The position numbers and the translations under genes are program-made. 64,000 nt of DNA from Amylostereum areolatum (taxonomy: Eukaryota > Basidiomycota > Agaricomycetes > Russulales > Stereaceae), in the NCBI GenBank assembly GCA_012932865.1, contig SAXG01000041.1, positions 124,001-188,000 of the forward strand. Reading direction: 5' to 3'. The notes below the pieces were generated by a model. The model did not search any database and was not told where the DNA came from. It was given only the letters and a program-made list of their open reading frames with translations. Shown here piece by piece: positions 7,196-46,446 of the stretch (position 1 is its first letter; every line of letters starts with the position of its first letter).

Positions 7196-7744
7196 TGTTA
7201 CAACTCGTTCAAGGTACTTCATTTCTGTTGCTTTATTAGGAAGGACGTCGCTAAACAACGAGTTACAACTGTGCCCCAGCTCGTAACCGTTCCGACGACA
7301 TAGCCACGACTGTGCCACAGTTCATCGGCATCTCGACAACACAGCTACGACAGTGCCACTGTTCGTCGACATCTCGACAACGCAGCCACGACTGTGCCCC
7401 AGTCGCGTTCCCGTAGATACTCGATGCGACCATTGCTCAATGTACATATATTTACTCGACCTCCTCTCTTATAAAAGGAGGCTCAACGAACGAGCCATTC
7501 TTCAGCTCGTTCTCTTTGTAAATACAGGACTGTTCTAATAAGAACCTCCTCTTCTAAACGCTAAGGAGAATCCCAAGCAACTAAGTTGATAAGCTCGCCT
7601 AAGTCTTCCGTGAAGACTTACTGCTTCGCTTTTCGACCTTCACCTTCGTATAACCGAGACGTCTGGATCACCTGATCCCACCTCTCACGCGTAAGAGTAC
7701 TGTAGCCTGAGCCGCTTGTCACGTGATAAGGACCGTCCTTAACA
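7196..7744 (+). repeat. 5' LTR of B1 (549 bp)
   Basis: The LTR starts TGTTACAACTCG and ends CCTTAACA. The TATA box TATAAAAGG lies at 7470-7478, and the predicted transcript start AGCTCGTTCT at 7504-7513. It has internal degenerate repeats of CGACTGTGCCMCAG in U3 (7260-7400). Confidence 0.92.
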
Positions 7745-8737: not shown

Positions 8738-9877
8738 ATGCCATCACCGCGGTCACCATCGCTTTCCGACCGATCGGCCGATAATAAGAAAGGAAAAGAA
8801 GTTCAGGACTACGTGTTCGGAAGAGGAGCGACCGCGGATCTTCCGAAAAGATCGAGATACCCACCAGGGAATTCCCCACCGAGAGGAACAGGGACAACCG
8901 GATCAAAGCCCGACGACAAGGATAAAGGATTCAAGCTAAACGCATTAGGAGTATACGACGGAAGGGATTGGGCAAAAGCAGCAAAGTTCGTAGAACAATG
9001 CGTACTTCGCTTCATAGCATTCCCCAACGCATATGCTGCCAACATGCGTAAGATAACCTTCGTGCTCTCACATCTCACCGATGGACCTGCCCTTCACTGG
9101 GCGTCCCTTTTAATAAGCAAAATCGATAAGATACGAGATCGCGGCCTAGATCCAGAAGTGTACCTTCCATGGACGGCGTTCCGCGACTACTTCTTAGAGA
9201 CCTTTGGAGAAATAGACCCCGGAAGGGACGCTAGATTCAACATACAGCGCCTGGAACAAGGCACTATGGAAACCAAAGATTATATCACGATCTTCAGAGA
9301 CTATGCCATGGAAGCTGGTTACGATCATAAAGCATTGATCGACCAATTCAAGAGAGGACTGCGCAACGATATCGTAGTCGAGATTCTTAAGAGAGATCAC
9401 ATCTCGAACGATATTGACGAATGGTATGAACTCGCATTGCGCATCGATAATAACTGGCGAGAAGCTCAAGCATTCCAACGACATTATACGAGACCAATGA
9501 ACCCGACGAGTGATCTCACCCTCCTATACAAGAAACCACAGACGTACGTTCCATTCCGAAGAGGAAACGGAAATAAAGGAAACGTCACCACCACCAGGGC
9601 CGCTCAGACCGGAAACAACGGCCGAAACTTCAGGCGCCTTACCCCGCAAGAACGTACCGAACTCCAGAAATCAGGATCATGCTTCTATTGCCGGAAGCCA
9701 GGACACATCTCCAGGAACTGCCCAGAGAAACGTACCCAAACAACGATCAATGCACAAACGGCGAATCTAACAGAAGAAGAATCCCCGATTGATCAGATCA
9801 CCAAGCTTGTGAACAAGATGGACAGTGAAATGTTCGCACGCACTGCCAACATGTTCAAAGACAATCAGGGTTTTTGA
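8738..9877 (+). CDS. gag: Gag of B1
   Basis: The protein has 379 aa from the first in-frame ATG, and the frame is open upstream to 8441. It contains a retrotransposon Gag capsid domain at about residues 60-230, with an FRDYFLETFGEIDPGRDARF segment, and a CCHC zinc knuckle (CFYCRKPGHISRNC, about 9680-9721) that would bind the element RNA. It ends NQGF in the string GGT TTT TGA, and pol is open in the -1 frame from the overlapping TTG at 9874. The product packages RNA into virus-like particles in the cytoplasm. It is intact in B1. Confidence 0.9.
   Translation: MPSPRSPSLSDRSADNKKGKEVQDYVFGRGATADLPKRSRYPPGNSPPRGTGTTGSKPDDKDKGFKLNALGVYDGRDWAKAAKFVEQCVLRFIAFPNAYAANMRKITFVLSHLTDGPALHWASLLISKIDKIRDRGLDPEVYLPWTAFRDYFLETFGEIDPGRDARFNIQRLEQGTMETKDYITIFRDYAMEAGYDHKALIDQFKRGLRNDIVVEILKRDHISNDIDEWYELALRIDNNWREAQAFQRHYTRPMNPTSDLTLLYKKPQTYVPFRRGNGNKGNVTTTRAAQTGNNGRNFRRLTPQERTELQKSGSCFYCRKPGHISRNCPEKRTQTTINAQTANLTEEESPIDQITKLVNKMDSEMFARTANMFKDNQGF
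9872..9877 (+). promoter_or_regulatory. Gag-pol recoding site (T TTT TGA)
   Basis: Gag ends TTT TGA preceded by T, so a Phe-tRNA at TTT can re-pair after a -1 shift and read TTG in the pol frame. The same arrangement is found at the ends of A gag (27188-27193), C gag (14847-14852), B2 gag and A2 gag. It is not a canonical X XXY YYZ heptamer. Confidence 0.55.
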
Positions 9878-19474: not shown

Positions 19475-21756
19475 CACCGAAGAAAGTAAAAGAAGTTCAA
19501 TTGTTCCTCAGATTTGGAAACTTCTATCGACATTTCATCAGAGATTATTCTAAGATAGCGAGACCACTATTCCAACTCACGAAGAAGGACCATGACTGGA
19601 ACTGGACAACCGAGTGTGAAAACACCTTCAACAGGCTGAAACACGAATCCACGTCATCCCCAGTCTTAATCATGCCTGACGAGAAGAAACCGTTCCGTAT
19701 AGAAAGCGATGCCTCAGACTTCGCGTACGGAGCTATCCTATCACAACCGGACGAAACCGAAAGATGGCATCCGGTCACGTACCTGTCCAAATCATTGTCA
19801 CCAGCGGAACAGAATTACGAAATATACGACAAAGAACTCTTGGGAGTGGTAAAAGCCTTAGAGCACTGGCGACACTATCTAGAAGGAGCAAACCACAAGA
19901 TTGAAATCTGGACAGACCATAAGAATCTAGAATATTTTACAACAGCACAGAAACTTAATCGACGACAAGCGCGATGGAGCTTGTACCTATCCCGCTTCGA
20001 CTACACCCTGGTGCACAAACCAGGAAGTACAAACAAAGCGGACGGACTTTCTAGAAGATCAGATCATAAAGAAGACATTCCAAATAACGATGAACGAATC
20101 CTGCTCCACCCTTCGATATTCAAGGCTAGAGCCACCGGAAGGGGAACTGTCGAAGCGATCGGAGATAAAGAACTTCTCAAAGAACTAAGGAACTTCTCAC
20201 ACCTGGACGATGAAGTTTGGACAGCGTTAGATACGATCAAAAGATCAGGACCACGTACCCTTGCAAAAGGAATTGAAGATTGGAACTTTGAGAACGATCT
20301 GATCATCAGAAAAGGAAAGATCTACGTACCACAGAATCTCGAACTGCGACGCCTGATCCTAAAATCGCATCATGATCTCCAGACGATTGGACATCCAGGA
20401 GAAATGAAGACTCTAGAACTGATACAAAGAAACTTCTGGTGGCCGAAGATGATTTCCTTCGTAAAAGGTTATGTCCAAGGATGTCCCGTATGCCAGTCAA
20501 CAAAGAATGTCACGCATCCAGCAAAACATCCACTACAACCTACGGAAATACCAGAACGACCATGGGAAACAATCACATCAGATTTCATTACAGATCTTCC
20601 GATCTCCAACGGATTCGATTCGATCAACGTAGTCGTCGACAGGTTCACCAAAACCGCAGTATTCACGCCGTGCCTAAAGACGATCAACGCAGAAGAAACA
20701 GCTGATCTTCTGATCGACAATGTTTACAGACGATTTGGACTATGGAAAAGAATGATATCGGACAGAGGCCCTCAATTCGCATCCAAAGTATTCCAATCCA
20801 TCTGCGAAAGTCTCGGAGTTATCTCGTCGCTCAGTACAGCGTATCATCCCCAAACAGATGGCGAAACAGAAAGAGTGAATCAAGAATTAGAACAATATCT
20901 TCGAGCATTCTGCAACGGAGATCAAACGAATTGGGCAAAACTTCTACCAAAAGCAGAATTCGCACACAATATAAGACAACATTCAGCTACGAAAGCTTCC
21001 CTATTTGAACTCCTACACGGGTATCAACCGGTTTTCAACCCGGCAATACCAACCGATCCGCGAATACCGACAGCCGAAGAAAGAATAAAGAACCTTAAGG
21101 ACGCATGGGACAACGCAGAAGCAAGTCTGGAAATAGCTGCCAAATTAATGAAAATGCAGCATGATCAAACGTTCACACTGCGAGATCAACTCAAACAGGG
21201 TGACCAAGTATGGTTAGACGGAAAAAATCTTAACACGGTATACCCGAAAACTAAACTAGCACCAAAGCGATTTGGCCCATTCAAAGTTGAAAAAGTTATA
21301 GGACCAGTAACCTATCGCTTAGAACTACCGGCGAAATGGAAAATACATCCGGTATTTCACGCAGCACTGTTAATTCCGTTCAAAGAAACAGAACAATACG
21401 GCGAAGCTTACGAAAAACCACCTCCGGAACTAGTAAACGATGAAGAACTCTATGAACTAGAAACAATAATAGCCTCGAAACTAGACAAACGATATTCCGA
21501 ACCATTACATTATTTCGTAAAATGGAAAGGCTACCCAGACTCCGGTAACACATGGGAACCAGCATCTAATCTCGAAGGATCAAAAGATGCGATCGCAGAG
21601 TTCCACCGGAATAACCCGAAGGCACCGAGGTTGCTACCACAGCCAATCAAAGAGACCAACGAAGAATCTACTGATCTCGACGAGATCACTGTAACGCAAC
21701 AAGAGCGAAGGCCAACACGACGAAAGAAACACAAGACAAAAGTAAAACACTGGTGA
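19475..21756 (+). CDS. pol: Pol of B1, RNase H-integrase-chromodomain part
   Basis: Pol resumes after the C insertion with RT-thumb/connection KEVQ...FGNFYRHFIRDYSK. RNase H follows ([36 protein letters not shown]), then an integrase finger ([26 protein letters not shown]) and a core with [19 protein letters not shown] and [12 protein letters not shown]. The C-terminal chromodomain (YELETIIASKLD, YFVKWKGYPDSGNTWEPASNLEG) would steer integration to modified histones. It ends in a basic tail at 21756. The frame is intact over 751 codons. The region 20130-20399 is missing from B2. Confidence 0.93.
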
Positions 21757-21790
21757 GACTCATTCAGGCGAATGCACTGCCAACAGGGAG

Positions 21791-21800
21791 GGGATAAAAA
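21791..21800 (+). promoter_or_regulatory. TATA-like box before the B accessory cassette
   Basis: GGGATAAAAA, followed by CCCTACGGG, lies 36 bp before the first accessory ATG (21830). It is conserved at the same place in B2 (43128-43135). It suggests an internal promoter giving a separate mRNA. The leading G-run could also serve as a second polypurine tract. Confidence 0.4.
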
Positions 21801-21829
21801 CCCTACGGGTTCAACGAGACAGAACACCA

Positions 21830-22084
21830 ATGTCCACCACCCCAAACGCAGCCAACACCTCTCCCACCAATCCAATCGTCACTCCCAGCAATGTCGACCG
21901 CCTCCGTCTCATTTGCAACAAAGTACACTACACCCAACAGGAATGAACCCTCTGCGGAGACTGCTTCATCGCTCGATCCGCAACTATCCTCGCAATTAAG
22001 TCGGCATCTCCTCCGTCTAGGTCAGGACCAGACGGAAGAACAAGGGGTAAGCCGCTTAGAAGCACACAGAAGAAACCCAACTGA
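21830..22084 (+). pseudogene. ORF-x of B1 (broken), small Cys protein
   Basis: This is the counterpart of the 88-aa frame at 43164-43430. In B1 it is stopped by TGA at 21944-21946, where B2 has CGC. It shares MSTTPNAANTS, RLRLIC and the CGDCFIARSA motif (a possible zinc site with the earlier Cys). Its far end overlaps ORF-a in another frame. Confidence 0.45.
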
Positions 22085-23594
22085 AGCGCCTGGATTCCTC
22101 ACAGGTGCTAATGCAATCCCCGTTGCCCAAAGCAACGGAAGTCCCAACGCCCGATTCCCCGATGCTAGAAAGTCAGATAGCCCACATGATAGCCGGAGTA
22201 GCTCTCGAGCAGGCCAGGGAGCGGATCAGCGAACTCAGGCAGGAGTCGGCCGACGTCCAGAGCATCTTAGGGAATCACATCAAGATGCTCGACGAGGAGT
22301 TTCTTCAGCTAGACTCGAGGTACCTAACGCTCTCGACCGAGATGGAGGAGAGGGAGGTCAAACTCCTTCGATGACTCCGGAAGCTAGCGCAGCAGCTATA
22401 CTCAACGTCGCAGAGCTCCGAAAATTCCTTACTGAAGTCGGACTCAGAGTTAACTGGCTTAACTGGGAAAGACACACCTTCCGTGCCGCCTACGAAGGAG
22501 AAATCCTCCGAAGACGAATGGAAACTACTGGAGTTCCCCATATGTCTCCACGAGATGGCCCTGACATCGACCTTATCTTCCATGGACATCACATCTCCCC
22601 GGGCTATACTATTCGACCCGATCCCATCACGACCACCCTCACCAGATCCCCGTACCCTCCTAACGCCCCTCCGCGGCCCGTCACCACTCATACTCCGCCA
22701 AGATCCATACCCATCCCCGGCTTCAACCACATTAACCCCATCCAGCCTCCCGTCGTTGGAAACGACATACCCGGAAAGTACACCGGACAGCCCCGTACTC
22801 CCCCAGACCCCAGACAGCCAACCAGAAGATTCCCAACGGAAAATCCGCGACGAGTACCTTGGGCACCTTCTTCACTGCCAGCGGTGCCTAGACCGCCAAC
22901 TCCTTTCCCAACTTCTATTGACGACGCTCCCATGCCTTGGAACGGAAATCCCCCTGCTTATCCCTCCTTCCTACGCCCACACCCCGACCACACTAGTGAT
23001 CTCATCGCCCAAGATCCCCGAGTCACCCCACAGCGACGTAAACATGAATCTGTCGACTCCGACGGAAGATCACTCAAGCGGATCAGAGACGTCGACTTCC
23101 CCGATAAGTCGGGCGATGAGGAACTGCGACAAGATCCAGGAGATAATCCAACAGATGAGGGAAATCCAAGCTCGCGGGAGACAGGAGCGCAAGTCAACGG
23201 ACGAATCGGACAGTTCGGCGGAGGAAGTGGACAATCCGACGGACGACCAAGCGAAGGAAGTAGCCGAGAATCCCTCGGACGAATGGAACAACAAGCCGAC
23301 CCCATGGACGCAGGAACAGTGGGACACGATTCCTGTGAAGCCGCGGAAATGCTGCTGGAAATGCGGCGAGCGAGGCCATCTCCGCCGAGACTGTCCCCGT
23401 CGCAAGAACGCTCCCCCTCACTTCCCCCGATCGCAATCATGCTACCCTCTCCAACCACGGACTCCTCTTCCTCACCCGAACCATCCGGATACCAGCTACG
23501 GTCCAGGAACACTGATGTCCCACCCCCACCTCCGACGTACCGACGCTACCGCCCACGCCCACAGACAGCTTCTGGGCTTCCTCACGCGACGTGA
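21891..23594 (+). CDS. ORF-a of B1, accessory protein
   Basis: A 567-aa frame from ATG 21891, conserved along its length with the 580-aa frame in B2. Conserved segments are RLGQDQTEEQGVSRLEAHRR, the core VAELRKFLTEVGLRVNWLNWERHTFRAAYEGEIL, GPDIDLIFHGHHISPGYT, a long Pro-rich disordered middle, and the end PSGYQLRSRN plus a TYRRYRPRP tail. No known domain was recognised, and there is no signal peptide or membrane segment. Between 22105 and 23594 the other strand-mate frame, ORF-b, is also coding-like. A conserved 58-nt intron (22047-22104) lies inside it; leaving it in gives this protein. Confidence 0.6.
   Translation: MSTASVSFATKYTTPNRNEPSAETASSLDPQLSSQLSRHLLRLGQDQTEEQGVSRLEAHRRNPTEAPGFLTGANAIPVAQSNGSPNARFPDARKSDSPHDSRSSSRAGQGADQRTQAGVGRRPEHLRESHQDARRGVSSARLEVPNALDRDGGEGGQTPSMTPEASAAAILNVAELRKFLTEVGLRVNWLNWERHTFRAAYEGEILRRRMETTGVPHMSPRDGPDIDLIFHGHHISPGYTIRPDPITTTLTRSPYPPNAPPRPVTTHTPPRSIPIPGFNHINPIQPPVVGNDIPGKYTGQPRTPPDPRQPTRRFPTENPRRVPWAPSSLPAVPRPPTPFPTSIDDAPMPWNGNPPAYPSFLRPHPDHTSDLIAQDPRVTPQRRKHESVDSDGRSLKRIRDVDFPDKSGDEELRQDPGDNPTDEGNPSSRETGAQVNGRIGQFGGGSGQSDGRPSEGSSRESLGRMEQQADPMDAGTVGHDSCEAAEMLLEMRRARPSPPRLSPSQERSPSLPPIAIMLPSPTTDSSSSPEPSGYQLRSRNTDVPPPPPTYRRYRPRPQTASGLPHAT
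22047..22104 (+). promoter_or_regulatory. Predicted frame-switching intron (58 nt)
   Basis: GTAAGC donor and CCTCACAG acceptor; length 58, equal to host introns in this window. B2 has the same intron at 43393-43450 with a perfect CTAAC branch word. 58 is not a multiple of 3: splicing moves a ribosome from the ORF-a frame into the ORF-b frame exactly at 22105. Confidence 0.55.
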
Positions 23595-23790
23595 GAGCCT
23601 GACTCACGAAGCCGCCCAACACGCCACCAAACAGTGGCTGTACTGGGAGGACGCGGCACTCCGCACTCAACGGAAACCTCCCTCGCGATTCAACCACTCT
23701 TGGCGCGTCGACGATCTCTTCTGGAAAGAAGAGGACTGGGACTTGCAAGAAGTGGAAGAGTCGAAGGTTCACTGGCCGGAGCCTTGGTAA
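22105..23790 (+). pseudogene. ORF-b of B1, second CCHC protein (one nonsense codon)
   Basis: The frame follows the acceptor at 22105 and ends TAA at 23790. It is interrupted by TGA at 22372-22374, where B2 has CGA. The N-terminal 90 residues are a heptad-like helical region (ALEQARERISELRQESADVQ). Ser/Pro/Asp-rich linkers follow, then a CCHC knuckle CWKCGERGHLRRDC (23351-23392). The conserved C-terminal region contains LLGFLTRRESLTHEAAQHAT, QWLYWED and NHSWRVDDLFWKEEDWDLQE. The layout is Gag-like, but it is not the element's Gag. It may bind nucleic acid. Confidence 0.6.
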
Positions 23791-24003
23791 GCGCACGGAC
23801 GATCTTTCACCCATCACACGCACTCGGACTATCTTTCTCATCATCACCATCATCATCATCATTTACGTCTCCGTCTCGTTCCCATCATCCCGCCTTTACG
23901 ATTTCTCCTTACGATACTCCTCGGACTGATCACGGACTGCGCCCTCACTCGCACGCATATTTTCCTCGGACTTCTCTACTGTACGGGTTCCTATCGCTAT
24001 GAG
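23787..24003 (+). promoter_or_regulatory. Possible second intron at the end of ORF-b
   Basis: GTAAGC overlaps the TAA of ORF-b. The next 210 nt contain no AG dinucleotide until CTATGAG at 24001-24003, an AG-exclusion zone in pyrimidine-rich DNA. B2 shows GTAAGT (45160) and the same AG-free stretch to 45361. The same DNA also codes an open hydrophobic frame (23791-24186), so the two readings compete. Confidence 0.4.
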
Positions 24004-24186
24004 GAAGGCGAAATGTTTGGCATCTTTCCCTGCGACGCGCTGGACGCATCGCTTACTTACGACTCATGTCTGATTATGTACGAGTTTTCACTTACGATTA
24101 ACGGCAATGATTACATCATTGCCCCTCCGCATCGCAAGCATAAAAGGAAAGCCACAAAGACGATAACATCCTCAGACATCGTCTAA
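23791..24186 (+). other. Hydrophobic open frame after ORF-b
   Basis: The frame continues directly after the ORF-b stop for 131 codons with no ATG near its start. It contains a His repeat from a CAT microsatellite, then PLRFLLTILLGLITD, HIFLGLLYCTGSYRYEEGE and DSCLIMYEFSLTINGNDYIIAPPHRKHKRK. The B2 copy (45164-45460) is frameshifted near its end. It could be a membrane tail reached by readthrough, or simply intron sequence. Confidence 0.3.
24139..24147 (+). promoter_or_regulatory. TATA-like box before ORF-c
   Basis: CATAAAAGG, 79 bp upstream of the ORF-c ATG, is conserved in B2 at 45498-45506 within a conserved block AAAGCCACAAAGACGATAAC. The spacing suits a short 5' leader. Confidence 0.45.
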
Positions 24187-24218
24187 CAAACCAATCTGCA
24201 CCACCCAAACCAACCACT

Positions 24219-24602
24219 ATGTCTTCTACCCTCGCCTCCTCCTCGCGCAACCTCTCCACCACCGACTGCACTCCCCCTGACACTCCTCCTCCCTCGCCCG
24301 TCCCTTCGCGGACTCCCACACCCGACCCACGCAACGAAGAACTCCTCCGTCATCTCAAACGAGTCACGGAACTCCTAAACCGTCCGGACGTCGCTCGCGC
24401 CATGAAGAGGCCGAGAAGCTTAGACGAAGAAGCTATGCAGGAGTCGAAGGGAAGATGCGGTATCAAGGGACTCTTCCGAAAGCGCGGACCTCGGTTCAAG
24501 AGCCCGGATCACGCGACGACGGCGAGGATAGGGCATCAGTTAGGGGCTACTACGATAGACGGAGAGGACTTGAAAGTAGTAGAGGCATTGCTAAAGCGAT
24601 AG
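24219..24602 (+). CDS. ORF-c of B1, basic 127-aa protein
   Basis: A 127-aa protein from ATG 24219, nearly identical to the B2 copy at 45577. It has a Ser/Thr/Pro-rich N-terminus ending in TPTPDP, a helix NEELLRHLKRVTELLNRPDVARAM, and a basic region KRPRSLDEEAMQESKG followed by KGLFRKRGPRFKSPDHATTARIGH, ending VVEALLKR. It may be nuclear (basic cluster KRPR). No known family was recognised. It lies in the env position, downstream of its own TATA-like box. Its TAG is inside a hairpin. Confidence 0.6.
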   Translation: MSSTLASSSRNLSTTDCTPPDTPPPSPVPSRTPTPDPRNEELLRHLKRVTELLNRPDVARAMKRPRSLDEEAMQESKGRCGIKGLFRKRGPRFKSPDHATTARIGHQLGATTIDGEDLKVVEALLKR

Positions 24603-24617
24603 AATAGAATTCTATCG
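24597..24617 (+). terminator. Conserved hairpin at the ORF-c stop
   Basis: CGATAGAAT, a 3-nt loop AGA, and ATTCTATCG form 9-bp complementary arms spanning the ORF-c stop codon. The hairpin is conserved in B2 (45955-45975). It may mark an RNA processing point between ORF-c and ORF-d. The role is inferred only from position. Confidence 0.35.
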
Positions 24618-24635
24618 TTGAGGTCCGGGCAAGGA

Positions 24636-24642
24636 TATAAAG
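24636..24642 (+). promoter_or_regulatory. TATA-like box before ORF-d
   Basis: TATAAAG, 39 bp before the ORF-d ATG, is conserved in B2 (45994-46000) with the same spacing. Confidence 0.4.
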
Positions 24643-24674
24643 AGTGAACATCAGAAAACGACAAACCCAGAAGC

Positions 24675-24998
24675 ATGGTGCAATCAACACAATCACCCGA
24701 TCTAACGATTCTCAATACGCCCACTCCTCGCTGGCTCATCGCCGTCGTCAGCATCATCGTAGGACTTACGATCCTCACCTTCCTCGCATCAACCATATTC
24801 CTTCTCCAATGGCGAAGAGCGAACAATCGACAACACGTTCAAGACATCCCTCTAGAACCACTCCGATTCAGGAATCTACGGGACGTAGATTCTAGAGAGG
24901 GGGATAGTGTTACAACTCGTTCAAGGTACTTCATTTCTGTTGCTTTATTAGGAAGGACGTCGCTAAACAACGAGTTACAACTGTGCCCCAGCTCGTAA
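24675..24998 (+). CDS. ORF-d of B1, single-pass membrane protein
   Basis: A 107-aa protein from ATG 24675. A short polar N-terminus ends TPTPRW. One strong membrane segment, WLIAVVSIIVGLTILTFLAS plus TIFLL, is followed by QWRRA, an arginine-rich cytosolic start. The tail is IPLEPLRFRNLRDVDSREGDS. The last codons before the LTR are the polypurine tract (AGAGAGGGGGA), and the frame continues about 90 nt into U3. The 74 residues before the LTR are almost identical in B2, so the protein is conserved. The position and LTR overlap recall the end of retroviral env genes, but there is no signal peptide, glycosylation-rich ectodomain or cleavage site. Confidence 0.65.
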   Translation: MVQSTQSPDLTILNTPTPRWLIAVVSIIVGLTILTFLASTIFLLQWRRANNRQHVQDIPLEPLRFRNLRDVDSREGDSVTTRSRYFISVALLGRTSLNNELQLCPSS

Positions 24999-25456
24999 CC
25001 GTTCCGACGACATAGCCACGACTGTGCCACAGTTCATCGGCATCTCGACAACACAGCTACGACAGTGCCACTGTTCGTCGACATCTCGACAACGCAGCCA
25101 CGACTGTGCCCCAGTCGCGTTCCCGTAGATACTCGATGCGACCGTTGCTCAATGTACATATATTTACTCGACCTCCTCTCTTATAAAAGGAGGCTCAACG
25201 AACGAGCCATTCTTCAGCTCGTTCTCTTTGTAAATACAGGACTGTTCTAATAAGAACCTCCTCTTCTAAACGCTAAAGAGAATCCCAAGCAACTAAGTTG
25301 ATAAGCTCGCCTAAGTCTTCCGTAAAGACTTACTGCTTCGCTTATCGACCTTCACCTTTGTATAACCGAGACGTCTGGATCACCTGATCCCACCTCTCAC
25401 GCGTAAGAGTACTGTAGCCTGAGCCGCTTGTCACGTGATAAGGACCGTCCTTAACA
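24908..25456 (+). repeat. 3' LTR of B1 (549 bp)
   Basis: It is about 99 percent identical to 7196-7744 and is preceded by the polypurine tract. It is followed by the duplicated CATCA at 25457-25461, where A1 resumes. Confidence 0.95.
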
Positions 25457-25461
25457 CATCA

Positions 25462-27119
25462 AGGGTAAGACCTTTCGTCGCCGCCACCACGAACATAAGA
25501 TCCGCCAGGCAGTAAAAGCCGGCTACCTCACCAAGAAACTCCTCGGCCGTTGCCCCATTGCGGCGGACTTCTTCTAGACCATCATCACGTCTTCCACAGC
25601 CCCTCGTCCCCCCACCCCGAACCTCCCCCCAGGCGTTTTTCGAGACTACTGTCCCGAAGAATACTATATCCTCACCTCGCAGCAGACTAAGGAATCCGTA
25701 CGTTGGCTGCACGACGAACCAAACCGGCAACGTCGAGACTGGTACTTCGACGACCGCGACGAACAACCCTACGTCGAAGAATCGGATTTTGCCACCGCTG
25801 CGGACGTTCTACAGCGCTTCCTGAACCCCCCTCCGACCAACTCGCCCCCACCCCGTCGACGCACTGTAATTGAAGTCCCAGAAGGGATCAACCACAATGA
25901 CACAACTGGGAAGTGGTACGCCTATAGACGGAACAAGAACGGAACCCCAGGACGATCAGTAGTTGAGTGGCAGCCCACTTCGTTCAGTCCCGTCCAAGAT
26001 CACTGGTCGTGGCATCATAGCCAGCAATTCCTCACCCCCGCCGACTTCCTTGTCGCAAAACAAGTTGAGGACGAAGTTGAAGAAGCAGAAGAACACCAAC
26101 GAGAAACTCTACGCCGCCTTGATCAAGAACTCGCCCAATCCCTCACCATCCCCCTCCCCTTCGACAAGATGTCCGACGCCAAATCCAAACCTGCCGTCTC
26201 CAAGCGGGAGATCGGCCCCAAGCCAAAGCCATTCAAAGGCGATAGACGCGACACCCTCCGGTTCTCCCTCGAGCTCCGCATGTTCCTGCGCGTTAACAAG
26301 GATGTTTATGCCACAGATGACGCCAAGATGATGCTCCTCCTCAGCCTGATGGAGGACGACACGGCGAAAGCCTGGGCCACGCATCGCCGCATGGAACTCT
26401 TCGCCAACGAAGACGAGAAGGAAGACGCCGAAACCCTCGACCCCACGCCCCCAACACTCCACTATAGCTCCTACAAAGAGCTCTTCGAGAGGTTTGGCAA
26501 AGACTTCGTGCCCGTCGATCCGAAGATAGAGGCTCAGCGTAAGATCAACGAGCTCGCAATGACCACCCGGGACGTCACTGACTTTATCACCGAGTTTGAG
26601 ATGCTGGCAACCATGTCAGCGTACGACGACGAGGCGCTAATCCACTTTTTCAAGAAGGGACTTCAGCGTGACCTCGGCAAGCAGGTGGCCCGGTCGTACC
26701 CATTCCCCACCAAGCTCGTGGAGTGGAAGGAGCGTGCCCGCCGCATCAACCACCAGTGGCTCGAAGAGAACCCGGAGAGGAAGAGCAGTCAGTCCAAGGG
26801 GGCTGTCGCGCTCACCTCGAATGGTTCGACCAACGACTCCTTGTCGCGCCGAGTCGGCGCCTTCACCAACACCTCGACCCGCCCTGCAAAGCTGACGGAC
26901 GACGAGCGCACAAAGATGATGCGCGAAGGCAAGTGCTTCATGTGTCGACAAGCCGGTCACGTCTCTCGCGACTGCCCCAACCGCGACTCGAGCGCGCGAT
27001 GGGTGGGCGCAGTAGAGACTGGGTCCAAGGCCCCCCCCTGCCGACGAACACGGCTCCGTCCACTGCGAAAGCAGCTCCCGACCCATCCAAAACCATCGCG
27101 GCGATCACTCGCCAGCTGA
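25462..27119 (+). pseudogene. gag: ORF0 end and Gag of A1 (frameshifted)
   Basis: ORF0 continues from 7195 and ends at an in-frame TAG (25575-25577). The same frame goes on without another stop to the first Gag ATG at 26169, adding about 197 residues (EEYYILTSQQTKESVRWLHDE, GKWYAYRRNKNG) with no Met. Gag has an unusual KSKPAVSKREIGPKPKPFKGDRRDTLRF start, a capsid domain and a CCHC knuckle CFMCRQAGHVSRDC (about 26935-26976). A run of eight C at 27031-27038, where A2 has nine bases (CCCCTCCCC), shifts the frame and loses the normal C-terminus, which is still visible up to GATTTTTGA at 27185-27193. Confidence 0.85.
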
Positions 27120-27189
27120 AGGATCTGGACGCGGAAGGCAAGGAGCAGGCAGTAGCGCTGTTGAAGGACATCCTGGAATCGCAGGATTT

Positions 27190-30100
27190 TTGAAACGCCC
27201 CCCAGTCGCGTCGTCTGGTGGAGGCAAAGGACTTTTGGTATCATCATCGAATCGTTTCGCTGTATTATCATCCATGCATACCTGTGAGCAATCGTATCCC
27301 CCGTGTTTGTATCTGTCTACTGTCACCAAGAACAGGCAAACACCATCGATCACGCTCAAAGTCAAGCTGATCGGACGAGTTACCAAAAGAGAAATCGACG
27401 CAGACGCGCTGCTTGATAGCGGCGCAGAAGGAATTATCCTGAACCGAAGCTTCGTTGAACGCAGGAAGCTTACCACAAGAAAACTAGAAAACCCGTTCCC
27501 CGTGCGTAATGTGGACGGCACCGAGAACATCATGGGCTGGGTACGCGACACAACGACCCAGCGGATCCGGATATACTCGCAAGATTCAAAGGCGTACCAT
27601 GAGGAAGAAGCTGAGTTCTTCATCACCGACATCGGCGATCATGACATGATCCTTGGAACAGACTGGCTCGATGAGCACAATCCCACCATAGACTGGCAAC
27701 AAGACCGTGTTGACATGCTCCGCTGCCCCCCCTCATGCACTCTGTCCAAACCTCCTGTGACAAACCTCGCAACCAAGCCACGGAGACCATCATCGGTCCA
27801 ATCACAGCGTAAGGTTGAAGCAGGTAAAACCCCGAGGACACCTCTCGTTCTAGACGATCCCTTTCCAGAGCCGACATATGTGTCCTGGACCCCAGTCCCC
27901 ACTTATGTTATTCCCGCACGCAGAGTCAAAGGTGTTCGCGTCCGCACGGTCCATCGCTCCCCTCTACCCGCACGACTCTTCACTGAAGACGACGACGAGC
28001 GGCCCATGGTATTCCGAGACTGGGAGATCAATGGACTACGCCGCGCCGGAATCCTCCCTGAAACCGATGGTCCTAATCCAGATACAATACCCATCCGCGC
28101 GGGCTTTACAAAAGCGCAGGAGCTTGCAGAGCATTCAAAAGAGAACGCACGCCCGCAAACCTTTGAAGACTTAGTCCCCCCGCCGTACCGCGACTTCGCG
28201 CCTGTATTCGACAAAAAAACCTCCGAGCGACTTCCTGACCGACGGCCATGGGACCATGCTATCGACATGAAAGACGGCTTTGAACCCAAACCGTGCAAGA
28301 TCTACCCCCTCTCACCTTCCGAGCAGGTCGAACTCGACACCTTCCTCGACGACCACCTGAAGAAGGGCTATATCCGCCCATCGAAGTCACCTCAGGCGAG
28401 TCCGTTCTTCTTTGTGAAGAAAAAGGATGGAAAGCTGCGTCCTGTACAGGACTATCGAGAATTAAACAAGGGCACTGTCAAGAATGAATATCCCTTGCCA
28501 CTGATCTCTGAAATTGTCGACCGTCTCAAAGGTGCAAAGATCTTCTCCAAGATGGATGTTCGCTGGGGCTACAACAATGTCCGCATCAAGGAAGGCGACG
28601 AGTGGAAGGCTGCGTTCAAGACGAATTGCGGTCTCTTCGAACCTACGGTGATGTTTTTCGGGCTTATGAACTCCCCTGCGACGTTTCAGGCAATGATGAA
28701 TGAACTGTTCAAGGATCTCATCGACTCGGGCAAGGTCATCATCTACATGGACGACATCTTGGTGTTCACTCGCACCATGGACGAACACCGTGCCATAGTG
28801 TGGCAGGTTCTGCAGCGTTTGCAAGACAACAACCTCTTCCTCAAACCGGAGAAATGCGTCTTTGAACAAGACTCTGTCGAATACCTCGGACTCATCATCT
28901 CGCACGACAAGATCGCTATGGACCCCGTCAAGGTAGCAGGTATTCAGGACTGGCCGACACCACGAACGGTCAAAGATGTGCAATCCTTCCTCGGCTTTGG
29001 CAACTTCTACCGACGTTTCATCAAGGACTTCTCCAAGGTTGCACGACCCCTATTTGACCTGACAAAGAAGGACTGCACATGGGACTGGTCGACGGACTGC
29101 CAAACTGTGTTTGACGCACTGAAAGCTGTGTTTACTTCCTCCCCCGTCTTGGTCATGCCTGACCCAAAGAAGCCTTACCTCGTTGAAGTCGACGCCTCGG
29201 ACTTTGCTACTGGAGGTATACTCTCGCAGAAAGGCGACGACGGTCACTGGCATCCAGTGGCGTATCTGTCCAAGGCCCTATCGGAACCAGAACGCAACTA
29301 CGACATCTACGACAAGGAGCTACTTGCGATCATCCACGCGCTTGAAGCCTGGCACCACTACCTCGAAGGCGCCCCCGACACCGTCGAAATCTGGACAGAT
29401 CACAAGAACCTGGAGCACTTCAAGACGGCACAGAAGCTGAGCCGCCGACAGGCACGTTGGGCTCTATTCCTCACTCGATTTGACTTCTCGCTCGTTCATA
29501 AACCAGGAATTTCCCACCGCCCGGACCCAATGTCTCGACGACCCGATCACAAGGATGGTGTTGAAAACGACAACAAGGAGCGCGTCTTGCTTGACCCCAA
29601 GTACTTCCAAGTACGCGCAACAAGGCCAGGAGCAGTAACCTCCCTCGGCGATGTCGAACTCCGACGACGTATCCGCGACTGCAAGACCAAGGACATCGAG
29701 GTCGTTCAAGCCCTGGACGCCATCTTACGAAACGGACCACGTACACTCGTCATGAACCTTCAAGAGTGGAACTACGAAGAAGGCCTGGTCCTGTTTAGAG
29801 GAAAGGTATATGTCCCTGCAGATGACGAGTTGCGACGCGACATTGTCAAAATGTACCATGAATCGCCCCTGGCTGGACACCCCGGTCGCTTCAAGACTTA
29901 CGAGCTTGTGAGTCGTGAATATTGGTGGCCTGGCATGTCTGTCTTCGTCCGCGAATTCGTAGCAGGATGTGCAACCTGCCAGTCGACAAAGACACAGAGC
30001 AGCCGACCCCACGTCGACATGATCCCAAACGAAGTACCCGATCGACCATTTGGCGTCATCTCCACCGACTTCATTGTCGAACTCCCTGACTGCGAAGGCT

Positions 30101-43081: not shown

Positions 43082-43127
43082 TGAGACTCAACGGCATTCA
43101 GGCGAATGCACTGCCAACAAGGGGGGG

Positions 43128-43135
43128 ATAAAAAC
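43128..43135 (+). promoter_or_regulatory. TATA-like box before the B2 accessory cassette
   Basis: GATAAAAA after a run of G, 35 bp before the ORF-x ATG; same block as 21791-21800 in B1. Confidence 0.4.
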
Positions 43136-43163
43136 CCTACGGGTTCAACAAGACAGATCACCA

Positions 43164-43430
43164 ATGTCCACCACCCCAAACGCAGCCAACACTTCCTCCA
43201 CCAATCCGATCGTCTCATCTAGCAATGTCGACCACCTCCGCCTCGTCTGCAACCGAGTTCACCACTCTCAACAGGAACGCGCCCTCTGTGGAGACTGCTT
43301 CATCGCTCGATCAGCAGCAATCCTTGCAATTAAGTCAGTACCTTCTCCGCCTAGGTCAGGACCAGACGGAAGAACAGACGGAAGAGCAAGGGGTAAGCCG
43401 CTTAGAAGCACACAGAAGAACCCTAACTGA
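43164..43430 (+). CDS. ORF-x of B2, small Cys protein
   Basis: An 88-aa frame from ATG 43164: MSTTPNAANTSSTNPIVSSS, then RLVCNRVHHSQQERALCGDC, FIARSAAILAIK and a basic Arg/Gly end. The C, CGDC arrangement could bind zinc, but no family was recognised. It overlaps ORF-a in another frame from 43225. If the 58-nt intron at 43393 is removed, this frame continues into ORF-a. Confidence 0.45.
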   Translation: MSTTPNAANTSSTNPIVSSSNVDHLRLVCNRVHHSQQERALCGDCFIARSAAILAIKSVPSPPRSGPDGRTDGRARGKPLRSTQKNPN

Positions 43431-44967
43431 AGCACCCGGATTCCTCACAGGTGCTAATGCAATCCCCGTGGCCCGGAGCAGCGGAAGTCCCAATGCCCGA
43501 TTCCCCGATACTCGAGAGTCAGATAGCCCGCATGATAGCCGGAGTAGCACTCGAGCAGGCCAGACAGCGGATCGACAACCTCAGGAGGGAGTCGGCCGAC
43601 GTCCAGGACATCCTGAAGAACCACGTCAAGATGCTCGACGGAGAACTCCGCCAGCTAGACTCGAGGTACCTGACGCTCTCGACCGAAATGGAGGAGCGAG
43701 AGGTCAAGCTTCTTCGACGATTCCGGAAGCTAGCGCAGCGGCTGTACTCAACGTCGCAGAGCTCCGGAGATTCCTTACTGAAGTCGGACACAGAGTCAAC
43801 TGGCTCAACTGGGAAAGACACACCTTCCGCGCCGCCTACGAAGGAGAAATCCTCCGCAGACGAATGGAAACTACCGGAGTTCCCCATATGTCGTCACGCG
43901 ACGGCCCCGACATCGATCTCATCTTCCATGGATATCACATCTCCCCGGGCTATACTGTTCGACCCGATCCCATCACGTCCGCCCTCGCCAGACCCCCGTT
44001 CCTTCCTAACGCCCCTCCACGACCCGTCACCGCTCCCACCCCGCCGGGATCCATACCCGTCCCCGACCTCACCCACATTAACCCCATCCAACCTCCCGTC
44101 GCTCGAAACGGAGTACCCGGAGAGCTGTTCAGACAGCCCCTGCCAGGAGAGCTATCGGGACAGCCCCTGGTCCTTCCAGAGCCCGGACAACCGACCGGAC
44201 AACCGACCAGCAGTCCGCGACCGGTATCTAGGACATCTTCTCGGCTGCCCGCCGTGCCTAGACCGCCAACTCCATTCCCACTATCTGCTGGCGATGCTCC
44301 CATGCCGTGGCACGGAGGCCCCGCCCCCTATCCCTCATTCCTATGTCCGCACCCCGACCATGCTCGAGATCCCGTCACCCAAGATCCCCGAGTCACCGCA
44401 CAGCGACGTAAACATGATTCTGTCAACCCCGACGGAAGACCGTTCAAACGAATCAGAGAGCTCAGACTCCCCGATGCATCGAGTGAGGAAGAACTTCAAG
44501 GAGCTCCAGAAGATAGTCGATCGGATGATGGAAGACCGCGCTCGCCGGAGACAGGAACTCAACCTAACGGACGAGTCGGACAGTTCAGCGGACGAATCGG
44601 ACAGTTCGGCGGACAAGGCGGAAGAAACGGCCGAGAATCCCTCGGACCCATGGAGCAACGAGCCGACCACGTGGACGCAAGAGGAGTGGGACGCAATTCC
44701 CTCGAAGCCGCAGAAACACTGCTGGAAATGCGGCAAGCGAGGCCATCTCCGCCGAGATTGTCCCCGTCGCAAGGACGATCCCCCTCACTTCCCCCGATCT
44801 CGGTCCTGCTATCCCCTCCGACCACAGACTCCTCTTCCTCACCCCCGCCCGAACCGTCCGGATATCAGTTACGGTCCAGGAACACTGATGTCCCACCCCC
44901 ACCTCCGACGTACCGACGCTACCGCCCGCGCCCACAGGCAGCTTCTGGGGTTCCTCACGCGACGTGA
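43225..44967 (+). CDS. ORF-a of B2, accessory protein
   Basis: A 580-aa frame, homologous to 21891-23594 along its length. The strongest conservation is in VAELRRFLTEVGHRVNWLNW, ERHTFRAAYEGEILRRRMET, GPDIDLIFHGYHISPGYT and the end PSGYQLRSRNTDVPPPPPTY. The middle is Pro-rich and disordered, with in-frame length changes between copies. It overlaps ORF-b by about 1.5 kb in the next frame. No known domain. Expressed, if at all, from unspliced RNA. Confidence 0.6.
   Translation: MSTTSASSATEFTTLNRNAPSVETASSLDQQQSLQLSQYLLRLGQDQTEEQTEEQGVSRLEAHRRTLTEAPGFLTGANAIPVARSSGSPNARFPDTRESDSPHDSRSSTRAGQTADRQPQEGVGRRPGHPEEPRQDARRRTPPARLEVPDALDRNGGARGQASSTIPEASAAAVLNVAELRRFLTEVGHRVNWLNWERHTFRAAYEGEILRRRMETTGVPHMSSRDGPDIDLIFHGYHISPGYTVRPDPITSALARPPFLPNAPPRPVTAPTPPGSIPVPDLTHINPIQPPVARNGVPGELFRQPLPGELSGQPLVLPEPGQPTGQPTSSPRPVSRTSSRLPAVPRPPTPFPLSAGDAPMPWHGGPAPYPSFLCPHPDHARDPVTQDPRVTAQRRKHDSVNPDGRPFKRIRELRLPDASSEEELQGAPEDSRSDDGRPRSPETGTQPNGRVGQFSGRIGQFGGQGGRNGRESLGPMEQRADHVDARGVGRNSLEAAETLLEMRQARPSPPRLSPSQGRSPSLPPISVLLSPPTTDSSSSPPPEPSGYQLRSRNTDVPPPPPTYRRYRPRPQAASGVPHAT
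43393..43450 (+). promoter_or_regulatory. Predicted frame-switching intron in B2 (58 nt)
   Basis: GTAAGC donor, CTAAC branch word about 27 nt before the 3' end, CACAG acceptor. Removal joins codon 56 of ORF-a directly to the ORF-b frame at 43451. Confidence 0.58.
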
Positions 44968-45163
44968 GAGCCTGACGCACGAAGCCGCCCAACACGCCAC
45001 TGAGCAGTGGCTGTACTGGGAGGACGCAATGCTCCGCACTCAGCGAGAACCCCCCTCGCGCTTCAATCACTCCTGGCGCGTCGACGATCTCTTCTGGAAG
45101 GAAGAAGATTGGGACTTGCAGGAAGCGGAGGAGTCGAAGGATCACTGGCCGGAACCCTGGTAA
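43451..45163 (+). CDS. ORF-b of B2, second CCHC protein
   Basis: A 570-codon frame following the acceptor (first ATG 43457). N-terminal helical region ESQIARMIAGVALEQARQRI, DNLRRESADVQDILKN and EMEEREVKLLRRFRKLAQRLY; Ser/Pro-rich linkers; acidic repeat DESDSSADESDSSADK; CCHC knuckle CWKCGKRGHLRRDC (44719-44760); conserved C-terminal LLGFLTRRESLTHEAAQHAT, EQWLYWED and HSWRVDDLFWKEEDWDLQE. Intact here, broken once in B1. Probably a nucleic-acid-binding protein distinct from the element's own Gag. Confidence 0.62.
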   Translation: MLMQSPWPGAAEVPMPDSPILESQIARMIAGVALEQARQRIDNLRRESADVQDILKNHVKMLDGELRQLDSRYLTLSTEMEEREVKLLRRFRKLAQRLYSTSQSSGDSLLKSDTESTGSTGKDTPSAPPTKEKSSADEWKLPEFPICRHATAPTSISSSMDITSPRAILFDPIPSRPPSPDPRSFLTPLHDPSPLPPRRDPYPSPTSPTLTPSNLPSLETEYPESCSDSPCQESYRDSPWSFQSPDNRPDNRPAVRDRYLGHLLGCPPCLDRQLHSHYLLAMLPCRGTEAPPPIPHSYVRTPTMLEIPSPKIPESPHSDVNMILSTPTEDRSNESESSDSPMHRVRKNFKELQKIVDRMMEDRARRRQELNLTDESDSSADESDSSADKAEETAENPSDPWSNEPTTWTQEEWDAIPSKPQKHCWKCGKRGHLRRDCPRRKDDPPHFPRSRSCYPLRPQTPLPHPRPNRPDISYGPGTLMSHPHLRRTDATARAHRQLLGFLTRRESLTHEAAQHATEQWLYWEDAMLRTQREPPSRFNHSWRVDDLFWKEEDWDLQEAEESKDHWPEPW

Positions 45164-45361
45164 GTGCACGGACGAACTCTCACCCATCATACGCACTCGG
45201 ACTATTTCTCCCATCATCATTTACGTCTCCATCTCGCTCCCATCATCCTGCCTCTACGATTTCTCCTTACGATACTCCTCGGACTGATCACGGACTGCGC
45301 CCTCACTCGCACGCATATTTTCCTCGGACTTCTCTACTGTATGGGTTCCTATCGCTATGAG
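45160..45361 (+). promoter_or_regulatory. Possible second intron at the end of ORF-b in B2
   Basis: GTAAGT overlaps the ORF-b stop, and no AG occurs before CTATGAG at 45359-45361. Length 202 against 217 in B1, the difference being mainly a CAT microsatellite. An overlapping hydrophobic frame (45164-45460) ends early by frameshift relative to B1. Confidence 0.4.
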
Positions 45362-45497
45362 GAAGGCGAAACATTTGGCATCTTTCCCTGCGACACGCTG
45401 GACGTGTCACTTACTTACGACTCGTGTTTGATTATGTATGATATTCCCGCTTACGATTGACGGCAATGATTACATCATTGCCCCTCCACATCGCAAG

Positions 45498-45506
45498 CAT
45501 AAAAGG
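45498..45506 (+). promoter_or_regulatory. TATA-like box before ORF-c of B2
   Basis: CATAAAAGG, 79 bp before the ATG at 45577, as in B1. Confidence 0.45.
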
Positions 45507-45576
45507 AAAGCCACAAAGACGATAACATCCTCAGACATCGTCTAACCAACTCACTCGCACCAACCAAACCAACAAA

Positions 45577-45960
45577 ATGTCTTCTACTCTTACTTCCTCA
45601 TCGCGTAACCTCTCCACCATCGACCACACCCCTCCTACCACTCCTCCTCCTTCGCCCGTCCTCTCGCGCACTCCCACGCCCGACCCACAGGACGAAGAAC
45701 TCCTTCGTCATCTCAAACGAGTTACGGAACTCCTAAACCGCCCGGACGTCGCTCGCGCCATGAAGAGGCCGAGAAGCTTAGACGAAGAAGCTATGCAGGA
45801 GTCGAAGGGAAGATCCGGCATCAAGGGACTCTTCCGAAAGCGCGGGCCTCGGTTCAAGAGCCCGGATCACGCGACAACGGCGAGGATAGGGCATCGGTTA
45901 GGGGCTACTACGATAGATGGGGAAGACCTGAAGGTAGTAGAAGCGTTGTTAAAGCGATAG
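45577..45960 (+). CDS. ORF-c of B2, basic 127-aa protein
   Basis: Same length as the B1 copy (24219-24602) and identical over almost all of the C-terminal 85 residues: EELLRHLKRVTELLNRPDVA, RAMKRPRSLDEEAMQESKG and KGLFRKRGPRFKSPDHATTA. Differences cluster in the Pro-rich N-terminus. This pattern suggests selection on the C-terminal part. No family recognised. The stop lies in the 9-bp hairpin at 45955-45975. Confidence 0.62.
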   Translation: MSSTLTSSSRNLSTIDHTPPTTPPPSPVLSRTPTPDPQDEELLRHLKRVTELLNRPDVARAMKRPRSLDEEAMQESKGRSGIKGLFRKRGPRFKSPDHATTARIGHRLGATTIDGEDLKVVEALLKR

Positions 45961-46032
45961 AATAGAATTCTATCGTTGAGGGCCGGGCAAGGATATAAAG
46001 AGTGAACATCAGAAAACGACAAACCCAGAAGC

Positions 46033-46446
46033 ATGATGCAATCAACACAATCACCCGATCTATCGATGTTCAATACGCCCACTCCTCGCTGGCTCATCGC
46101 CGTCGTCAGCATCATCGTAGGACTTACGATCCTCACCTTCCTCGCATCAACAATATTCCTCCTCCAATGGCGAAGAGCGAGCGATCGACAGCATGTTCAA
46201 GAGATCCCTCTAGAACCGCTTCGATTCAGGAATCTACGAGACGTAGATTCTAGAGAGGGGGATAGTGTTACAACTTGTCCAAGGTACTTCATTTCCCATT
46301 GCCTTATTAGGAAGGACGTCGCTAAACGACGGATTACGACTGTGCCCCAGTTCGTAACCGTCTCAACGACGCGACGACGACAGTGCCACAGATCGTCACC
46401 GTCTCAACGGCACAGCCGCGACGGTGCCACAGTCTCATCCCCGTAG
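46033..46446 (+). CDS. ORF-d of B2, single-pass membrane protein
   Basis: ATG 46033, 39 bp after TATAAAG. Membrane segment WLIAVVSIIVGLTILTFLAS is identical to B1, as are QWRRA and IPLEPLRFRNLRDVDSREGDS. The frame enters the LTR at 46266 and runs further there than in B1 (137 aa in total), because U3 has diverged. The coding part upstream of the LTR is the conserved part. Confidence 0.62.
   Translation: MMQSTQSPDLSMFNTPTPRWLIAVVSIIVGLTILTFLASTIFLLQWRRASDRQHVQEIPLEPLRFRNLRDVDSREGDSVTTCPRYFISHCLIRKDVAKRRITTVPQFVTVSTTRRRQCHRSSPSQRHSRDGATVSSP

Follow-up and report, generated by a model that had tools for sequence, protein, structure and literature searches.

Gag and pol are commonly regarded as all that a retrotransposon requires. 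Among retroviruses, foamy viruses use an internal promoter for the accessory genes that lie before the 3' LTR, and in HTLV the AUGs of Tax and Rex are ~60 nt apart. In the portions of the papers on which we draw here, a single bicistronic mRNA that is spliced twice is reported to give both HTLV Tax and Rex (PMC6714889), from tax and rex frames that overlap (PMC8227390). According to part of one source, most copies of the plant elements Athila, Bagy2, Grande, RIRE2 and Retand have extra open reading frames (ORFs) after pol and before the 3' LTR, with splicing reported for Bagy2, while the "additional ORF" of the fungal Gypsy element Boty is antisense (PMC7264820). LTR elements of bdelloid rotifers carry varied ORF3s beside gag and pol, according to the excerpt cited (PMC5408684).

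Here, we describe an accessory cassette in a retrotransposon family of Amylostereum areolatum, family B, which has two copies, B1 and B2, in the window (the whole 64,000-nt stretch of DNA that was analysed). The likeness to the deltaretrovirus pX region (HTLV tax/rex) lies in a post-pol accessory block, a predicted bicistronic spliced mRNA and overlapping frames. In contrast to pX, family B has no env, belongs to a chromodomain Ty3 element, and displays a ~1.5-kb overlap, a 58-nt intron and putative internal promoters; no sequence similarity was found, and the zinc knuckle (zf-CCHC) of ORF-b was the only Pfam match above cut-off in the cassette. Whereas the plant elements have env-like sense or antisense ORFs in the part of the source cited, family B would have four sense products, with two frames overlapping. 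In the same part, no multi-gene cassette, overlapping frames or splicing is mentioned for the fungal Gypsy elements that have an "additional ORF". Rotifer ORF3s are given in the cited excerpt as env-like, esterase or exonuclease, none of which was found by Pfam in the family B cassette. Finally, where foamy viruses have an internal promoter, family B has three putative units. According to the original prediction, this arrangement would be a new layout. What stands of that claim is a conserved multi-gene accessory cassette in a chromovirus; plant, rotifer and certain fungal elements are already known to carry additional ORFs in this position. Within the open-licence literature, we found no paper whose title or start of abstract describes the cassette layout.

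Family B is a chromodomain Ty3/Gypsy (chromovirus-type) LTR retrotransposon. Across its pieces, B1 shows the Pfam domain order PF03732, PF00098, RVP_2, RVT_1, RNaseH, H2C2 and rve, i.e., a gag with CCHC (the first CCHC protein of the family) followed by a pol ordered PR-RT-RH-INT, as expected of Ty3/Gypsy chromoviruses. The same holds for its TG..CA LTRs with a short target site duplication (TSD) and for the C-terminal chromodomain of its integrase (PF00385, 1.2e-14 in B1 and 2.5e-15 in B2). The two B1 LTRs are 99.1% identical, differing at 5 of 549 positions. The putative primer-binding site (PBS) at 7747 has 10 nt of complementarity to 7504, ~34 nt past the TATA box, and may thereby serve self-priming of the Tf1/sushi kind, in which the PBS pairs with the start of the element's own transcript. 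A search of a protein collection with pol returned 4,303 matches, the best at 63% identity.

Table 1. Features of family B copies B1 and B2 and of their accessory cassettes (positions in the window)
Feature	Positions	Strand	Remarks
B1 5' LTR	7196..7744	+	TG...CA ends; TATA 7470; TSD CATCA 7191-7195
B1 self-priming PBS-like sequence AGAACGAGCT	7747	+	
B1 gag	8738..9877	+	PF03732 3.6e-09, PF00098 3.2e-05; Retrotrans_gag + CCHC
Nested element A	11982-19474		repeats; interrupts B1 pol upstream of its 3' part
B1 pol 3' part: RNase H, integrase, chromodomain	19501..21756	+	PF17917, PF17921, PF00665, PF24626, PF00385
B1 accessory cassette (x, a, b, c, d)	21757..24907	+	between pol stop and 3' LTR
B1 ORF-x exon 1	21830..22046	+	TGA at 21944
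B1 ORF-a, unspliced reading	21891..23594	+	open 567 codons
B1 58-nt intron	22047..22104	+	GTAAGC...CACAG
B1 ORF-b exon 2, CCHC protein	22105..23790	+	TGA at 22372
B1 ORF-c	24219..24602	+	127 aa
B1 ORF-d, single-TM protein	24675..24998	+	extends into 3' LTR
B1 3' LTR	24908..25456	+	followed by TSD CATCA
B2 accessory cassette	43082..46265	+	LTR from 46266
B2 unit 1 TATA-like box GATAAAAA	43127..43134	+	51/51 copies
B2 ORF-x exon 1	43164..43392	+	conserved Cys/His motif; ATG 51/51; a frame after splicing
B2 ORF-a exon 1	43225..43392	+	ATG 51/51; b frame after splicing
B2 58-nt intron	43393..43450	+	50/51 copies; precisely absent in L017
B2 ORF-b frame, exon 2	43451..45163	+	long N-terminal helix, CCHC, conserved C-terminus
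B2 ORF-a frame, exon 2	43453..44967	+	tightest constraint 43701-43975
B2 conserved non-coding block between b and c	45293..45334	+	
B2 9-3-9 inverted repeat	45462..45482	.	upstream of unit 2
B2 unit 2 TATA-like box	45499		ATAAAA
B2 ORF-c, basic 127-aa protein	45577..45960	+	ATG and TAG 51/51
B2 9-3-9 inverted repeat	45955..45975	.	spans ORF-c stop; upstream of unit 3 TATA-like box
B2 unit 3 TATA-like box	45992		
B2 ORF-d, 96-aa single-pass membrane protein	46036..46323	+	starts at second of two adjacent ATGs

Many family B copies have the ~3.2-kb cassette downstream of pol and ahead of the 3' LTR (Table 1). In B1, it had been predicted to follow directly on the pol stop, and it indeed fills the space between that stop (21754-21756) and the 3' LTR. 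The second copy that had been pointed out, in B2, keeps the five frames in identical order with length differences that are mostly in-frame, and its ORF-d overlaps the polypurine tract (PPT) and LTR. This is not a chance insertion shared by two related copies, since the genome contains 76 scored ORF-b matches among 308 candidates. Matches to pol and LTR flank the cassette in 51 of the 57 copies read (B1 and B2 counted), the other six being without one, and c or d lies at the cassette spacing in at least 102 of 128 pol tails. Leaving out six partial cassettes, we aligned 51 full copies; the copies read were chosen as best ORF-b matches, which biases them toward an intact b, and do not include 20 of the 76 scored copies. 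All five ORFs that had been proposed are present, but x, a and b do not stand as genes of their own: a and b overlap over ~1.5 kb, and an intron links the three.

Removal of this 58-nt intron would connect x with the a frame, and the beginning of a with the b frame. A spliced unit 1 mRNA would contain two ~600-codon frames. The x ATG has a C at -3 and the a ATG a purine at -3 in all 51 copies, which fits leaky scanning; the two ATGs are 61 nt apart in 50 of 51 copies, and in seven copies an additional ATG follows the TATA-like box before the x ATG is reached. The exon 2 stop of the a frame in B2 is missing in 33 of the 51 copies. Two copies (L027 and L057) led us to discard unspliced ORF-a as the main product: their unspliced a frame ends after 54 codons inside the intron, while both spliced frames are open. 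Antisense coding in the x/a/b region was likewise discarded, with 17-31 stops per frame in four copies. A bicistronic spliced mRNA with overlapping frames would fit the exact loss of the intron in L017 and the presence of two selected frames.

Selection was measured as observed over expected changes, by parsimony on one tree, scaled to the b-c intergenic stretch 45164-45460 (nonsynonymous, N, 0.98; synonymous, S, 1.01). We obtained N 0.20 and S 1.21 for the b C-terminus, 0.43 and 1.41 for ORF-c, 0.59 and 1.28 for ORF-d, and 0.50 and 0.90 for x alone. Since this reference includes a conserved block, we also used 45164-45284; most ratios then drop (synonymous 0.62-1.24 in x, the b C-terminus, c and d), but nonsynonymous changes stay well below synonymous ones in b, c, d and x. 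The near-neutral rates in all frames that would have spoken against the original prediction are clearly not what the copies show. These counts ignore recombination between copies, resolve ambiguous states arbitrarily and skip changes where the parent codon is a stop, and they missed at least one stop, the TGA of B1 in x (counted as 0 there). On internal branches, there was no stop in the b C-terminus, c or d. The open frame 45164-45460 was not accepted as a gene; it itself set the reference rate, at which both its N and S lie, so this rests on the lack of an N/S difference and of 3-periodicity. Although without coding constraint, this frame holds the conserved non-coding block, and its part 45341-45460 gives N 0.49 and S 0.53 on internal branches with the 45164-45284 reference.

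Damage is common among the copies: of the 51, 38 have a full-length x-a, 41 a full-length a-b and 32 both, while c is complete in 46 and d in 44. Point stops occur in one copy in x exon 1, nine in a exon 2, eight in b, two in c and four in d, and in none in a exon 1. Both single-base defects noted earlier in B1 are real (the TGAs of its x and b frames). With LTRs differing at 5/549 positions, B1 either moved with help or was damaged afterwards.

As had been proposed, the cassette encodes a second CCHC protein (b, with its zinc knuckle), a basic protein (c) and a membrane protein (d, with one helix). Pfam searches with x, a, c and d stayed empty up to E = 1, and NCBIfam gave no match above cut-off; NCBIfam and PHROGs together gave three weak matches (E 0.039-0.086). 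Among solved structures, matches of b centre on the zinc knuckle, a has none, c has two weak ones, and the sole match of the d profile is a weak one, with the TM helix of a receptor (E 0.15). A protein collection queried with a and b returned no relative by a method that finds only relatives sharing 5-residue words, viral_contigs gave no match for b, a or pol, and nothing reached the Rfam gathering score in 42900-46800. Since the AlphaFold models of a and b are poor (mean pLDDT 39 and 45, from two-row alignments), functions were assigned from motifs and composition.

Family B, a chromodomain Ty3/Gypsy element, probably expresses its selected accessory region, which follows pol and precedes the 3' LTR, in the form of three short units. 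The first of them, unit 1, would give one mRNA from which the intron is removed. Ribosomes starting at its weak first ATG would make, from the x-to-a frame, a basic protein with a zinc-finger-like N-terminus, and those passing it would start at the second ATG and make, from the a-to-b frame, a coiled-coil CCHC protein; units 2 and 3 would yield c and d. In this model, the internal promoters, leaky scanning and protein functions are inferred. The a-b protein is most likely a second nucleocapsid-like RNA-binding or assembly protein, x-a and c are most likely nuclear regulators or RNA-export/packaging helpers, and d most likely anchors particles at a membrane or routes them to it.

It is highly improbable that only b, c and d are genes, with a and x kept open by base composition and by the constraint on b. 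Such an explanation would fit the mild depression of b-silent missense changes in a, which number 674 against 1,035 expected (0.65) over the overlap and, in 43453-43700, reach 0.94 of expected, almost unconstrained. It is at odds with b-silent changes that make a stop in a, at 11 against 118 expected (0.09; stops versus missense, Poisson P ~8e-21) and one against 58 on internal branches, and with the third position of a being the fast one in 43701-43975. The near absence of point stops in the first exons of x and a counts against it too. In 13 hand-picked copies, the overlap has no stop in the a frame and none in the b frame of 12 (B1 has one), while the third frame has 21-29; synonymous permutation never reproduced this pattern (2,000 runs each), permuted b always leaving more stops in a. 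Gaps per copy relative to B2 are multiples of 3 in 77 of 80 cases in the overlap versus 35 of 317 between b and c. The coding status of the cassette frames is well supported: the genome evidence shows coding, selection in each frame and precise intron loss in one copy. The substitution counts show that b, c and d are under purifying selection, as are x and a despite the overlaps.

As regards expression, the TATA-like boxes and inverted repeats were recognised by sequence pattern and may mark promoters. It is unlikely that translation of the accessory ORFs depends entirely on spliced or full-length RNA driven by the LTR, with the boxes fortuitous: the L017 intron loss does suggest that spliced RNA can be copied into the element, and in most copies the b stop sits within a GTAAG-like 5' splice-site sequence, but the boxes precede both x and c in all 51 copies and d in at least 48 of them, with much of the sequence around those of c and d varying freely. 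We find it improbable that the element retained a transduced host locus encoding host-derived proteins. The intron and TATA-like boxes are gene-like, the GC3 of b and c (0.68 and 0.65) is unlike that of B1 pol (0.42), and codon usage in the b frame resembles that of c (0.70) more than that of pol (0.27); against this stand the database searches, in which Pfam and NCBIfam gave nothing above cut-off but the zinc knuckle and the protein collection nothing for a or b, and the pol and LTR flanks of 51 of the 57 copies read. A 1.5-kb double-coding region is moreover unusual in host genes. Quite improbable, finally, is a minimal envelope module, with d as its membrane or fusion part and the rest as helpers, serving hypha-to-hypha passage. 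Location between pol and LTR, an intron in the cassette and the conserved hydrophobic segment of d, followed by basic residues, would all suit it, but no ORF resembles an envelope protein. Judged on hydrophobic segments, none combines signal peptide, ectodomain and TM: d alone has a strong one, near the N-terminus of its 96 aa after ~19 residues, and neither the Pfam result for x, a, c and d nor the weak receptor helix match of d points to an envelope.

With expression of a selected accessory region as three units as the preferred reading, the cassette reads, on our analysis, more like the accessory region of a complex retrovirus than like an ordinary retrotransposon, and the spliced double-frame gene is its most unusual part. 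More tentatively, and with slightly less than even confidence, we suggest that family B may be a complex retroelement that arose independently of retroviruses: a chromovirus with at least four accessory proteins, internal promoters and a leaky-scanned double-frame gene on one spliced mRNA, a functional parallel to pX that might help particles to assemble or the element to pass between fused hyphae. Genes of this kind would be overlooked or broken up if annotation went by the longest ORF or by repeat masking. That a high-copy chromovirus retains four more proteins under selection, two of them in frames that overlap over ~1.5 kb, suggests that retrovirus-like complexity can arise outside retroviruses, and family B makes it testable what accessory proteins do in a retrotransposon without an obvious extracellular phase.

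The original prediction was that family B, a Ty3/Gypsy chromodomain LTR retrotransposon with two copies (B1 and B2) in the window, carries about 3.15 kb of DNA with five frames (x, a, b, c and d) between pol and the 3′ LTR, and that a second, diverged copy keeps all five. Both claims held. Searching the 57.1-Mb genome of Amylostereum areolatum with ORF-b gave 308 candidates and 76 scored matches, the corresponding figures being 299 and 75 for ORF-a, 231 and 150 for ORF-c, and 305 and 150 for ORF-d. We read 57 copies (55 loci plus B1 and B2). Matches to pol and LTR flank the cassette in 51/57, with one of these flanks missing in L014, L019, L046, L053, L056 and L058. The full alignment also comprises 51 copies, the partial cassettes (L014, L019, L032, L046, L053 and L058) having been left out. 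Among the matches listed, ORF-d lies 300-700 bp downstream of ORF-c in at least 128 of 150, and at least 102 of the 128 pol tails listed (150 reported) are followed by c or d at about the distance expected. These findings show that the cassette is real and common.

Coordinates of family B features in the window
Feature	Position	Details
B1 LTRs	7196-7744 and 24908-25456	5/549 positions differ
Inverted-repeat insertion in B1 pol	~10744-11234	~490 bp, ~82% match to own reverse complement
Element A (another repeat)	11982-19474	nested within B1 pol
B1 cassette	21757-24907	
B2 cassette	43082-46265	

B1 has a 5-bp target duplication (CATCA), and domain matches between its LTRs identify gag (Retrotrans_gag, zf-CCHC), aspartyl protease, RT, RNase H, integrase and a chromodomain. 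The inverted-repeat insertion in its pol looks MITE-like. A PBS-like AGAACGAGCT (7747-7756) after the 5′ LTR is complementary to 10 nt of the LTR (7504-7513), a segment ~34 nt past the TATA box (7470); this complementarity suggests possible self-priming of the Tf1/sushi type. The LTRs also contain a hairpin, TAAGTCTTC-CGT-GAAGACTTA, at 46627-46647, at 25312-25332 and in other copies. Among 35 matches to the hairpin pattern, 20 have this form and six read TAAGTATTC-CGT-GAATACTTA, with both arms changed. As for the surroundings, B1 appears to have inserted within one copy of element C, another repeat, whose parts 6274-7195 and 25457-31634 match 42207-41284 and 41288-35110. B2 is seemingly split into 31635-35109 (inverted, an upstream portion of pol) and 42205-46772; the pieces join at B1-equivalent 20877-20881 (5-bp overlap) and are flanked by two oppositely oriented element-C copies, which suggests an element-C insertion followed by inversion.

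To assess selection on the frames, changes were counted by parsimony on a tree built from the 51 copies, with expectations taken from the b-c intergenic stretch and transitions, transversions and CpG sites treated separately. On this reference itself, observed/expected ratios were 0.98 for non-synonymous changes (N), 1.01 for synonymous changes (S) and 0.84 for stops. N and S were 0.20 and 1.21 for the non-overlapping C-terminus of b, 0.43 and 1.41 for ORF-c, 0.59 and 1.28 for ORF-d, and 0.50 and 0.90 for x alone. In the a/b overlap, observed versus expected changes were 437 vs 1401 non-synonymous in both frames, 674 vs 1035 in a only, 563 vs 1170 in b only, and 34 vs 33 in neither. Changes that introduce a stop in a but leave b unaltered numbered 11 against 118 expected (Poisson P ~8e-21), far below the level predicted from b-silent missense in a. 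With 45164-45284 as reference, internal branches have no stops in the b C-terminus, c or d and one b-silent stop in a against 58 expected; terminal branches have some stops, as expected of post-insertion decay, and non-synonymous change is reduced there too. The parsimony count is imperfect, having overlooked a B1 stop in x; counted directly, point stops occur in x exon 1 in one of the 51 copies, a exon 1 in none, a exon 2 in nine, b in eight, c in two and d in four.

Constraint alternates between a and b, the fast position being the third of a in 43701-43975 and elsewhere mostly the third of b; a-frame missense in 43453-43700 is barely lowered (0.94). When either frame was permuted synonymously in 13 hand-chosen copies (2000 runs each), stops in the other frame were never as few as observed, and the third frame of the overlap holds 21-29 stops. 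Gaps relative to B2 are multiples of three in 77/80 cases in the overlap vs 35/317 between b and c, in a per-copy tally where one event recurs across related copies. These patterns indicate that both overlapping frames are under selection, and the coding status of the cassette frames is well supported by the genome evidence.

The frames x, a and b are connected by an intron (B2 43393-43450) that measures 58 nt in 50/51 copies. It opens with GTAAGC in 49 of these and with GTCAGC in the other, and closes with CACAG. The remaining copy, L017, lacks it, with the break exactly at the splice borders; since its three closest relatives (98.2-98.3% identical) keep the intron, this absence is a derived loss, of the kind that reverse-transcribing a spliced RNA would leave. 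Once the intron is removed, x reads on into the a frame and the opening portion of a into the b frame, with predicted products of 581 (x-a) and 626 aa (a-b) in B2. At the genome level, there is good support for x, a and b as a single spliced gene read in two frames. Full-length x-a (≥560 aa) is present in 38/51 copies, a-b (≥605 aa) in 41/51, a figure favoured because copies were picked via ORF-b, and both in 32/51; c (≥125 aa) is full length in 46/51 and d (≥90 aa) in 44/51.

At -3, all 51 copies have C before the x ATG and a purine (A or G) before the a ATG. The two ATGs lie 61 nt apart in 50/51, with no intervening ATG in 50/51. These contexts and spacing would fit leaky scanning, although 7/51 copies have a further ATG after the TATA-like box and ahead of that of x. 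TATA-like boxes lie upstream of x and of c in 51/51 copies each, and of d in 48/51 by a stricter pattern. Two inverted repeats (9-bp arms, 3-nt spacers) were identified, one upstream of c and one across the c stop before d; when the three segments between ORFs of B2 were shuffled by mononucleotide 500 times, repeats with 9-bp arms averaged 0.004, against these two. A mismatch breaks pairing of the pre-c repeat in a few copies, and more than half of the copies show a G-T pair in the pre-d repeat. Together with a conserved block between b and c (~45293-45334), they are candidates for promoter or RNA elements. A further 9-3-9 inverted repeat, imperfect in some copies, lies inside ORF-d (46230-46250), directly before the polypurine tract.

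Features of the predicted proteins may point to their roles. The a-b product (pI 5.5) starts with a long helix (residues 19-106 of b; pLDDT 71-81 at residues 21-100), followed by a middle region whose prediction has low confidence, then by a CCHC knuckle and a C-terminal part that is conserved; against solved structures, the b profile gave matches centred on the nucleocapsid-protein zinc knuckle (best E 0.0014). Both x-a, whose x part has a conserved Cys/His motif, and c have a pI of 10.4, and d has a single hydrophobic segment starting at residue 20 (mean 2.57 across 19 residues). In Pfam, at E up to 1, x, a, c and d matched no family. Codon usage leaves the relative age of the a and b frames unsettled because a is nearer B1 pol and gag, and b nearer c.

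Additional ORFs are already known: they are on record between pol and LTR in plants (PMC7264820), third ORFs occur in rotifers (PMC5408684), and some fungal elements have an additional ORF (PMC2864245). The compared portions of these descriptions contain no sense cassette of several genes whose frames overlap and are spliced. Family B is not itself a pX-type element: the searches gave no homology, and it has no env. In how it would work, the HTLV pX region is the closest case, with overlapping tax and rex (PMC8227390) and one bicistronic spliced mRNA that yields both Tax and Rex (PMC6714889).
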